Part shown: positions 3,358-7,088 of the stretch, one piece after another
Numbering within the stretch: the stretch's first letter is position 1
Layout of the letters: each line of letters begins with the position of its first letter
Source of the DNA: Acidobacteriota bacterium
GTDB taxonomy: Bacteria; Acidobacteriota; Terriglobia; Terriglobales; Acidobacteriaceae
Assembly: GCA_021818105.1 (NCBI GenBank)
Contig: JAKAFB010000004.1
Location: 53,731-117,730 of the forward strand
Direction: 5' to 3'
Length of the DNA: 64,000 bases
Translations under genes and position numbers: made by a program
Notes under the pieces: generated by a model
What the model was told of the DNA's origin: nothing
Database searches by the model: none
Seen by the model: only the letters and a program-made list of their open reading frames with translations

Positions 3358-3659
3358 CCCGCCTTTTGCCGATAATTTCTCGCCTCTGTGCCATCATCAG
3401 AATCATGAGGCACAAGGTGAGCACGGAAACCGCGATCTGCGTTGGCACGGCTACCACGCGCATGCCGCTTTCAGGGTTACAGGCAGATGTCTTGTGTCAG
3501 GATGCCCCCACCCCCTACCCCCCCCCTTTTTTATTTGCACTTTTCCACAGATGGCTTGCCGAAAATTACGGGCGCGCGGCCGCGCAAATGCCGGGGGAAT
3601 ACAGAAAGAGCCCTCCGCGCACGGAGAGCCCTCTGTCAGGTTCTGTTCGTTAAGCCGCT

Positions 3660-3941
3660 CTACGCGCTGCCTCCTGCAATCGACGGGATTACCAGCACCT
3701 CATCGCCCTCCTGGAACGCGTACTTCTCGTTGCCGAGGAAGCGAATGTCTTCTTCGTTCACATAAAAGTTGATGAAGCGCCGGATCTGCCCGTCCTCGCC
3801 GCGCAGGTGCTGCTTCAGCGCCGGGAAACGCTCCTCAATATCCGCCACCAGTTCCGGCAGGTTCGCTGCCGCGCTGTCAATCTCGCGAATGTTGTTCGTA
3901 TGCTTCTGGAACGCATTGGGCAAAAGGACTCTAACGGACAT
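3660..3941 (-). CDS. MoaD/ThiS family sulfur-carrier-like protein (C-terminus GGSA)
   Basis: 93 aa beta-grasp-type sequence MSVRVLLPNAFQKHTN...INFYVNEEDIRFLGNEKYAFQEGDEVLVIPSIAGGSA; start overlaps end of upstream threonine-synthase-like gene by 11 bp. Confidence 0.85.
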   Translation of the reverse strand: MSVRVLLPNAFQKHTNNIREIDSAAANLPELVADIEERFPALKQHLRGEDGQIRRFINFYVNEEDIRFLGNEKYAFQEGDEVLVIPSIAGGSA

Positions 3942-5205
3942 TGCTTTCTCCTGCCAGGCTTAACTCCCGGCCTGCTGTATGTTCTTCCACAAAGTTCTCA
4001 AAATCAGTAAGCCGCGGTCGAATCGCCCGGTTCTGGTCGTACGCGCCGTGCAGCGCGTCGGTCGTCTTCAGTCCGTTGCCGGTAATGCACGCCACAGTTA
4101 GTTCATTCGCTCCGATGCGCCCATGCGCATACAACCGCGCCGTCACCGCCGTCGTCACGCCGCCCGCCGTTTCCGTAAAGATGCCTTCCGTCTCCGCCAG
4201 CTCCTGAATCGCAGACACAATCTCCACGTCCGACACATCCTCTGCCCAGCCGCCCGACGAGCGAATCGCCCGCGCCGCATACAATCCGTCCGCCGGATTC
4301 CCAATCGCCAGCGACCGCGCAATCGTATTCGGCCGCTGCGGCTCCACTGCGTCCGTGCCATTCTTCACCGCCTGCGCAATCGGCGAGCAGCCCGTAGCCT
4401 GCGCGCCAAAGAAGCGCACCGGCTTGTTTTCCACCAGACCCAGCGCAATCAGCTCATTGAACGCCTTGCGAATCTTCGTAATCAGCGATCCGCCCGCCAT
4501 CGGCACCACCACGTTGTCCGGCAGCCGCCAACCCAGTTGCTCCGCAATCTCAAAGCCCACCGTTTTCGATCCTTCGGCGTAGTAAGGCCGCAGGTTTACG
4601 TTCACAAAGCCCCAGTTGTAGCGGTCCGCAATTTGCGAGCACAGCCGGTTCACATGGTCATAGTTGCCGTCCACGCGCACCAGCGTGGCCCCGTACACCT
4701 GGGTGTTCAGAATCTTCGCGGGCTCCAGATCGGCGGGCACCAGGATGAACGTCTTCAGCCCCAGCCGCGCCGCCTGCGCCGCTACGGCGTTCGCCAGGTT
4801 GCCCGTCGACGAGCAACCCACCGTGTCAAACCCGAAGGCCTGCGCATTGGCCAGCGCCACCGCCACCACCCGGTCCTTGAAGCTGAGAGTCGGCATGCAA
4901 ACGGCGTCGTTCTTGATGTACAGATTGCCTGCCCCGATGCGCGCAGCCAGCCGTGGCGCCTTCACCAGCGGAGTCAGCCCCGCCGGAGTCTGCGGCTCGT
5001 AACTGTCGGCAACCGGCAGCAGCGCGCGATAGCGCCACATATTCAGCGGCCCCGCGCTGATGGCCTCGCGCGTAAAGCGCGTGCGGGCATGCTCAAGGTC
5101 ATAGGTCACCTCAAGCGGGGAAAAGCACTCATCACAAATGGAAAGCGGCTGAACACCGTAGGTTTTGCCGCACTCACGGCATCGCAACTCATAAGCAGTC
5201 GTCAC
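3931..5205 (-). CDS. thrC: Threonine synthase-like PLP-dependent enzyme
   Basis: N-terminal Zn-ribbon CRECGKTYG...CDECF, PLP lysine motif LSFKDRV, SSTGN loop, C-terminal TGNGLK; GTG start with upstream GAGGGA. Confidence 0.88.
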   Translation of the reverse strand: MTTAYELRCRECGKTYGVQPLSICDECFSPLEVTYDLEHARTRFTREAISAGPLNMWRYRALLPVADSYEPQTPAGLTPLVKAPRLAARIGAGNLYIKNDAVCMPTLSFKDRVVAVALANAQAFGFDTVGCSSTGNLANAVAAQAARLGLKTFILVPADLEPAKILNTQVYGATLVRVDGNYDHVNRLCSQIADRYNWGFVNVNLRPYYAEGSKTVGFEIAEQLGWRLPDNVVVPMAGGSLITKIRKAFNELIALGLVENKPVRFFGAQATGCSPIAQAVKNGTDAVEPQRPNTIARSLAIGNPADGLYAARAIRSSGGWAEDVSDVEIVSAIQELAETEGIFTETAGGVTTAVTARLYAHGRIGANELTVACITGNGLKTTDALHGAYDQNRAIRPRLTDFENFVEEHTAGRELSLAGESNVR

Positions 5206-5332: not shown

Positions 5333-5442
5333 AATCTCATGTTCCCCGTTTCCGGGCGAGAGTTGACACCATACTCCTGGATTGCCCAGGCAGGTTGTCG
5401 TGGCGTCACAGGGCCCGTCCCTCAGCCACTCTGCATGAAATT
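5333..5442 (-). promoter_or_regulatory. SAM-I (S-box) riboswitch candidate
   Basis: Minus-strand sequence AATTTCATGCAGAGTGGCTGAGGGACGGGCCCTGTGACGCCACGACAACC...GGTGTCAACTCTCGCCCGGAAACGGGGAACATGAGATT; P1 AATTTCATG/CATGAGATT (9 bp), AGAG-GG-(G)AGGGA-GGCCC-TGA..CC.CG.CAACC core, GGTG.CAA.TC, CCCGGAAACGGG hairpin. Confidence 0.9.
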
Positions 5443-5592: not shown

Positions 5593-5910
5593 TCACCCGC
5601 CCGCAATCGCGCCTACCACCATCAGCGGCTCTTTGCCCTTGGCCACAGCATCCGGCAGCGGTGCATCGACTGGGTCGTGCGTCAAATCTTCGCCGCAGGC
5701 AAAGAAGCGCAGAAACGGCCGCCGCTTCTGCGTCCCATGCTCGCGGATGGTGCCCATCAGCATCGGGTAGCGTGCTTCCAGCGCGTCCAGCACGGAGCGC
5801 ACCGTCACCGCTCCGGCAACCTCAAGCGCGACGTCGCCCTCCACCCGCGCCAGGTTGCGCAGGTGGTACGGCAATGCGACTTGAACCGTATGGACTTCGC
5901 CAGCCTTCAT
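5593..5910 (-). CDS. MoaD/ThiS family protein ending in Gly-Gly
   Basis: 105 aa; ...[38 protein letters not shown]-terminal GG; start overlaps the stop of the upstream BNR-repeat gene. Confidence 0.85.
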
Positions 5911-7088
5911 GCCAGCGTCTGCACCTCAACGGAAAGTACCGCGGGCAGGTCATGCACAATCGCCTGCCACGAGTCGCCGCCGTTCGGCGAAACATACACC
6001 TGACCGCCGGTCGTCCCGAAATACACACCGCACTCATCCAGCCTGTCCACGGCCATCGCATCGCGGAGTACGTTTACATAGCAGTCCTTCTGCGGCAGGC
6101 CCTTCGTCAGCGGCTCCCACTCGTTGCCGCCGGTACGGCTGCGATAGACGGCCAGTTTGCCATCCAGCGGGAAATGCTCTCCGTCGCTCTTAATCGGAAC
6201 CACATAGATCGTCTCCGGCTCATGCGCGTGCACGTCAATCACAAAGCCGAAGTCGGTGGGCAGGTTGCCGCTGACCTCGCGCCAGTTGTCACCCGCGTCA
6301 TCGCTGCGCATCACGTCCCAGTGCTTCTGCATAAACAGCACATTCGGCCGCGATGGGTGCATGGCGATGTGATGCACGCAATGCCCGACATCGGCCGTCG
6401 GGTCGGGAATGTATTGCGAGTGGAGCCCTTTGTTGATCGGCTTCCACGTCTGTCCGCCATCGTCCGTGCGGAACGCGCCTGCCGCCGATATCGCGATATA
6501 CATCCGCTTCGGGTTCGTCGGATCCAAAATGATCGTGTGCAGGCACATGCCGCCCGCGCCCGGCTGCCACTTCGGCCCGGTGCCGTGGCCGCGCAACCCG
6601 GGCAGTTCGTGCCAGTTTTCTCCGCCATCCGTCGAGCAAAAGATGGCTGCATCTTCCACGCCGGCGTAGACCATATTTGCATCGGTCAGCGATGGCTCGA
6701 TATGCCACACACACTTGAATTCCCACGGATGCTGCGTGCCGTCATACCACTGATGCGTGGTCAGAGGCTTGCCCGTCTCGGCGGACGAGTCGTATACGAA
6801 CCTGCTGGGAAGGGCCTTGGGCGGGCCGGGAACGGGCAATTCCGCGGCACTAACGCCGGGCTGATGCCACGTCTTGCCGCCGTCAGTGGAACGCTGCACG
6901 AGCTGGCCAAACCAGCCGCTGGTCTGCGAGGCGTAGATCCTGTCCGGGTCCACGGGCGAGCCCTTCATGTGGTAAATCTCCCAGCCCGCAAAGAATGGGC
7001 CGCTGACCTCCCACTTTTCGCGCTTGCCGTCTGACGTCAGGATGAACGCACCTTTGCGCGTTCCGACCAAAACACGCACCTTGCTCAT
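5907..7088 (-). CDS. BNR/sialidase-like repeat (beta-propeller) protein, apparently cytoplasmic
   Basis: Repeated STDGGKTW / [11 protein letters not shown] / [10 protein letters not shown] / SPNGGDSW Asp-box-like motifs; no signal peptide ([21 protein letters not shown]). Confidence 0.87.

Follow-up and report, generated by a model that had tools for sequence, protein, structure and literature searches.

The window, that is, the whole 64,000-nucleotide stretch of DNA analysed here, carries on its minus strand a metM-metO operon headed by a SAM riboswitch, the MetO-type sulfur carrier of which appears to be made with a short C-terminal propeptide. We put the probability of the following reading at about 75%: the JAMM protease of the genome would trim the carrier, a MoeZ-type enzyme would thiocarboxylate it and the MetM-like enzyme would use it to make homocysteine. 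In this Acidobacteriaceae soil bacterium, trimming by the genome's metal-dependent protease is thus probably required before the carrier can carry sulfur. Gene content, operon, riboswitch, conservation pattern and MetX exclusion were established directly. The features of the locus are the following.

3660..3941, minus strand: MetO-type sulfur carrier of the ThiS/MoaD/CysO fold, 93 aa (matches to Pfam ThiS and to PDB CysO chains)
3669..3674, minus strand: Gly90-Gly91 di-glycine (Gly90, 3674-3672; Gly91, 3671-3669), whose C-terminal position is required for activation
3663..3668, minus strand: Ser-Ala tail (propeptide) after the di-glycine, encoded in the sequence (Ser, 3668-3666; Ala, 3665-3663)
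3662-3660, minus strand: carrier stop codon, TAG
3931..5205, minus strand: MetM-like PLP enzyme, a threonine synthase homologue of 424 aa (Pfam PALP, 3.5e-67; TIGR00260, 5.4e-84)
5334..5441, minus strand: SAM riboswitch aptamer RF00162 in the operon leader (Rfam, 74.5 bits against a gathering score of 44.4; E 1.3e-15; full-length model match)
3607..3632, minus strand: possible intrinsic terminator 3' of the carrier gene, found by eye (stem of 11 pairs, two of them G-U, with a 4-nt loop, followed by TTTCTGT)

Judged from its sequence, the carrier plainly has a fold of the ThiS/MoaD type. Profile searches returned Pfam ThiS (1.1e-10) and also Urm1, and the PDB search returned two chains of CysO type, one at 1.1e-15 and one at 5e-15; the latter corresponds to entries 3dwg/3dwm, the M. 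tuberculosis CysO. The translation of positions 3660-3941 on the minus strand ends in ...VLVIPSIAGGSA and, read up to the stop, in ...EGDEVLVIPSIAGGSA (PSIAGG-Ser-Ala-stop). The open reading frame, the Pfam ThiS match and the CysO matches therefore confirm the original prediction of a ThiS/MoaD-like carrier in which the di-glycine is not terminal and is followed by Ser-Ala. That prediction had named a frameshift or sequence error as a possible source of the extension, and this is ruled out by the locus of a sister species (L139), the carrier and upstream enzyme of which are 89% and 96% identical to those in the window. Following the di-glycine codons, the sister locus reads TGC GAC TAA (Cys-Asp-stop) and the window AGC GCG TAG (Ser-Ala-stop). 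Since L139 also stops two codons past the di-glycine, with other residues, an error in the sequence does not account for the tail. Inspection by eye of the window and L139 DNA past the carrier stop revealed no remnant of a longer Cys tail, and in a 13-sequence alignment spanning both the metM-linked and the CysO-type carriers P-S-I-A-G-G is invariant.

The end of the enzyme gene and the start of the carrier gene overlap by 11 bases, the carrier gene being the second of the operon, and the putative terminator behind it was not called by a consensus scan that demands a stronger T run. A SAM riboswitch lies directly 5' of the orthologous enzyme gene in 10 of the 16 other loci tested (eight of these ten belong to the family, and the remaining two are verrucomicrobial, L172, and deltaproteobacterial, L204). 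Given its position 5' of the enzyme gene, the gene pair is placed under methionine (SAM) control. The window also encodes a second small carrier-like protein (5593-5910, minus strand; 105 aa), which ends exactly in ...VVGAIAGG and shows no Pfam match and weak SAMP1 similarity (8e-4); its gene begins within the last bases of one for a BNR/Asp-box protein (5907-7088, minus strand).

The homocysteine synthase MetM of Streptomyces albulus converts O-phosphohomoserine (Hasebe et al. 2024, AEM 90:e01247-24), as related in PMC12172450, and the part of that account concerned with Streptomyces describes metM as preceded by a SAM riboswitch and accompanied by a carrier gene, metO, with homologues in cyanobacteria. 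By analogy, the MetM-like enzyme of the window is likely a homocysteine synthase using O-phosphohomoserine. It is 56% identical to homologues from Nostoc, Nonomuraea and a deltaproteobacterium, and 35% identical to the canonical ThrC of its own genome, which is encoded separately on contig C15. Among 60 genomes of the family Acidobacteriaceae, orthologues of the enzyme occur in 31, our own included (one is a contig-end fragment); the other orthologues are 67-85% identical to the window's enzyme, whereas every other ThrC-like gene in the 60 genomes reaches 40% or less. The carrier gene follows the enzyme gene in all family loci examined except those of G023 and G304. In the former (L119), no carrier was found behind the MetM-like gene, with about 1 kb of contig remaining past it; in the latter (L120), none was found within 3 kb.

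The enzyme-carrier pair recurs in Verrucomicrobia, Nitrospirae, Omnitrophota, cyanobacteria (Nostoc), a deltaproteobacterium, Rokubacteria and others. In the Nitrospirae locus L178, the gene run comprises a TusA-like gene, MoeB, JAMM, the ThrC-like enzyme and the carrier, followed by a NIL-domain gene, canonical ThrC, a phosphoglycerate-mutase-family gene and aspartokinase (assignments by eye for TusA, NIL, mutase and aspartokinase; the NIL domain match was tested on the L184 copy). The association of carrier, NIL-domain, threonine synthase, mutase and aspartokinase genes in the Nitrospirae loci L178 and L184 fits a cluster at the methionine/threonine branch point. Two Omnitrophota loci (L167 and L177) encode the carrier fused to a NIL-like stretch, and in a third (L180), from a small genome bin with no JAMM match, the end motif recurs within the tail of the carrier (PAIAGG-SDARRFCA-PAIAGG-KD).

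That the enzyme might simply be a second threonine synthase, adjoining an unrelated carrier, is in keeping with its score against the thrC model TIGR00260, which exceeds the cut-off. The canonical thrC elsewhere in the genome and the SAM riboswitch as control element nevertheless render a plain second threonine synthase extremely unlikely, and the carrier association across phyla and the near-exclusion of MetX described below argue against it as well. A further consideration is that the Microcystis aeruginosa ThrC, 51.6% identical to MetM, has been reported to act both as a threonine synthase and as a threonine deaminase (PMC12172450), which leaves some doubt about the substrate that the window's enzyme prefers. 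We regard this Microcystis ThrC, presented as a moonlighting threonine synthase in PMC12172450, as a MetM-type enzyme on account of its carrier neighbour and its sequence identity, and its in vitro activities may need re-testing with thiocarboxylated carrier.

Independent support for a role in homocysteine synthesis comes from the distribution of MetX. Strong MetX matches (E below 1e-90) were found in 2 of the 31 family genomes with a MetM-like gene versus 16 of the 29 without (Fisher P = 4e-5, a value that ignores relatedness). MetX and the MetM-like gene thus largely exclude each other. One of the two genomes with both genes is our own, in which MetX and a MetY-sized enzyme are encoded side by side on contig C105. 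This rules out the operon as its only homocysteine route, and the MetM-MetO route may therefore be an additional, and possibly redundant, one. The same arrangement, together with the rarity of genomes holding both routes, could be taken to mean that the operon is decaying, and that Ser-Ala is a harmless leftover on a disused carrier. We deem this very unlikely: riboswitch, gene overlap and reading frames are intact, the sister species retains the nearly identical enzyme and carrier with its di-glycine, and tails across the group are short and Cys-rich, contrary to what would be expected without selection.

The original prediction held that the window encodes neither a JAMM protease nor a ThiF/MoeB-type activating enzyme and proposed searching for them in the rest of the genome. 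The window indeed lacks both genes, and the only good matches in the genome lie on contig C17, which encodes one JAMM and one E1-rhodanese, each the sole copy in the genome and about 10 kb apart. The genes outside the window that bear on carrier activation are listed below.

Contig C17, locus L006, 1447-1953: Prok-JAB (JAMM) protein (PF14464, 1.1e-23) with intact metal-binding motif HxHP...SxxD (HSHP...SxxD), HSHPDQPAHWSRTD
Contig C17, locus L006, 11552-12790: MoeZ-type ThiF-rhodanese E1 (PF00899, 1.1e-82, and PF00581, 1.5e-16, in one protein)
Contig C16, locus L001, 1021-1791: MoaD-MoaE fusion with an internal di-glycine (VSGGAPE)

The nearest solved relative of the JAMM protein is 2kcq. In a genome of the same genus (G171) and in most of the family, JAMM, CysO and E1-rhodanese form a run, often behind a cysteine-synthase-like gene. 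A CysO gene hidden between the JAMM and E1 genes of our own genome was considered and rejected, as none was found in the C17 gap (L006 1447-12790). The genes present there encode TusA, FlpD, HdrA-like, iron-sulfur and DsrE-like proteins, and the group looks like one of the sulfur-oxidation type. With no CysO between JAMM and E1, the carrier of the window and the MoaD-MoaE fusion become the likely substrates of the JAMM protease. MoaD-MoaE fusions are established JAMM substrates in Deinococcus (PMC8832034), and the MoeZ of Mycobacterium acts on MoaD as well as on CysO (PMC3227635).

The same gene inventory could point to a carrier whose chief function is that of a CysO in cysteine synthesis, supplying cysteine synthases alongside or instead of the MetM-like enzyme. 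Its best solved relatives are CysO proteins, two cysteine-synthase-like genes are present (on C80 and C79), and JAMM and E1 have been kept even though no CysO stands between them. Their retention, however, does not call for such a carrier: a second genome of the genus (G007, locus L138) keeps JAMM and E1-rhodanese, and no CysO- or MetO-type carrier was found in it. Since the carrier is, in addition, encoded behind the MetM-like gene across the whole orthologue group and under a SAM riboswitch, we judge a principal role in cysteine synthesis to be distinctly unlikely.

JAMM and E1, being unlinked to the operon here, could also serve the MoaD-MoaE fusion alone, with Ser-Ala removed by another protease (a carboxypeptidase, for example) or never. 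The fusion is a known kind of JAMM substrate, G007 retains both enzymes without either carrier, and M. tuberculosis MoaX is cut after Gly-Gly, between Gly82 and Ser83, by a protease that is not identified in PMC4326299. Against this, JAMM proteins of the same type adjoin CysO-type carriers bearing like tails throughout the family, and a tail left untrimmed would leave no free Gly carboxylate for adenylation. JAMM, carrier and E1 even share a single open frame in loci L125 and L126 (619 and 655 codons between stops). A restriction of JAMM and E1 to the fusion hence seems unlikely, and trimming of the MetO-type carrier by JAMM remains the reading that we favor.

Across 50 named genomes, a strong JAMM match (E 1e-12 or better) was detected in 21 of the 23 whose carrier is tailed or fused versus 11 of the 27 whose carrier ends exactly at GG (Fisher P = 2.8e-4), a contrast that is phylogenetically clustered, stems largely from the tail-free, mostly JAMM-less Verrucomicrobia and was addressed by a tree-aware test of low power. 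This clustering weakens the co-occurrence of tail and JAMM as independent proof. Because many genomes with exact-GG carriers lack JAMM, the protease appears to be dispensable for the homocysteine step as such; its necessary task in tailed genomes would be the removal of the tail.

Examination of the carriers of Acidobacteriaceae and near relatives revealed that 66 of 70 different metM-linked carriers are tailed after an invariant GG. The original prediction had proposed that the two-residue tail be checked for conservation in orthologues, and had taken variable tails without GG conservation as grounds for abandoning the idea. The di-glycine is conserved, as anticipated, and the tails vary in length and sequence, so that a two-residue tail as a fixed signal did not hold up. 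Tail length is 1-3 residues in 50 of the 66 tailed carriers, whereas a null obtained by reading on into the downstream DNA gives 1-3 residues in 10% of cases (median 23), indicating that tails are kept short. They are also rich in cysteine, which makes up 80 of 346 tail residues (23%) versus 42 of 6127 (0.7%) in the carrier cores and 3.5% in the downstream null. Cys directly follows GG in 27 of the 66 tails and requires at least 20 changes on a carrier tree that is rough, being built on short sequences. The paralogous CysO-type carriers present a similar picture, with 16 of 16 tailed and Cys at 20 of 93 tail residues versus 1 of 1407 core residues. The two groups include a few class-level relatives from outside the family, and a metM-linked carrier lying at the edge of its contig (L156) was placed among the CysO-type ones, neither of which changes the picture. 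Outside the Acidobacteriaceae group, 24 of 39 metM-linked carriers end exactly at GG, and so does that of Nonomuraea.

The longer tails (17-33 residues) of six close relatives (L039, L099, L100, L101, L102 and L144) share the motif CCSYCGxExCxC. We propose, tentatively and with more doubt than conviction, that the tail is a selected maturation element rather than a neutral cap, in which case CCSYCGxExCxC might bind metal or sense thiols, tying maturation to sulfur, redox or zinc state. As the Ser-Ala tail of the window lacks Cys, this idea concerns the group rather than the window's protein. Some carriers in the group end in GG-Cys-stop; such a product should equal the carrier-cysteine adduct hydrolysed by the JAMM of the CysO pathway and would constitute a ready-made JAMM substrate. 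The Cys-rich tails thereby raise a concrete and testable question on the control of carrier maturation.

For the operon of the window, we infer the cleavage, activation and catalysis as follows. Low S-adenosylmethionine would permit expression of the operon, as expected from how riboswitches of this class are known to act. The carrier would be made as ...GG-Ser-Ala, a form that, from E1 chemistry, should not be adenylatable. The single JAMM protease of the genome would then cut after GG, and the MoeZ-like E1, if it behaves as its homologues do, would adenylate the freed Gly, its rhodanese domain supplying the sulfur for the thiocarboxylate. Finally, the MetM-like enzyme would pass this sulfur to an O-phosphohomoserine intermediate to yield homocysteine, as reported for S. 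albulus. The same JAMM and E1 probably serve the MoaD-MoaE fusion too. This scheme connects the MetM-MetO methionine route to JAMM-dependent unmasking, so that the synthesis of methionine and that of the molybdenum cofactor could both be gated by a single protease. The pair is usually annotated as a threonine synthase and a MoaD/ThiS protein, in several phyla, and its recognition may fill what look like gaps in methionine synthesis.

The pair shares individual traits with several known systems. In work on Wolinella succinogenes dating from 2011, Krishnamoorthy and Begley are said to have described a carrier, HcyS, from which the metalloprotease HcyD removes the residue after GG, the product being homocysteine; the partner is reportedly a MetY-type enzyme acting on O-acetylhomoserine, all within one gene cluster. 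The carrier tail after GG is alike, but the enzyme here is ThrC-like, the MetY-sized enzyme lies on C105 and JAMM on C17. The HcyS-type system suggested by the original prediction was hence not borne out, and a strict one is ruled out by the lack of a linked MetY or JAMM, the operon being metM-metO under a SAM riboswitch. HcyS remains a good analogy in that the product is very probably homocysteine. In thioquinolobactin synthesis, the JAMM protease QbsD removes Cys-Phe after the GG of QbsE, which, like the carrier of the window, ends in GG and two residues; that system belongs to Pseudomonas secondary metabolism and differs in partner enzymes and gene cluster. For trimming of the HcyS-HcyD or QbsE-QbsD kind, tail and JAMM protease are both present in our genome, and the cleavage is predicted.

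The MoaD-MoaE fusions (Deinococcus DR2607, Mycobacterium MoaX) are likewise activated by a cut after an internal GG, but there a working MoaE subunit lies past the GG, and here a short tail. The CysO-CysM-Mec+ system of M. tuberculosis, in which JAMM hydrolyses carrier-cysteine (PMC3227635), resembles the present one in carrier sequence and fold and in the possession of a MoeZ-type E1-rhodanese and a JAMM. It differs in that the gene next to the carrier here is ThrC-like rather than CysM-type, JAMM (on C17) and E1 are unlinked to the locus, a SAM riboswitch is present and the carrier end is masked.

The closest match is MetM-MetO of S. albulus, where the MetO thiocarboxylate, according to Hasebe and colleagues in 2024, is reportedly the sulfur donor. 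Both have a ThrC-like PLP enzyme, an associated carrier gene, a SAM riboswitch upstream and a separate canonical threonine synthase. The carrier of the window, in contrast, has residues after GG, so that it would present a C-terminal di-glycine only after trimming, whereas the actinobacterial homologue from Nonomuraea (L219) ends exactly at GG. With the relation to S. albulus drawn through the Nonomuraea and Nostoc homologues, the predicted MetM-MetO pair of the window matches this system in every feature compared except the non-terminal GG. The homocysteine route itself was already known, and what is new is the encoded propeptide.
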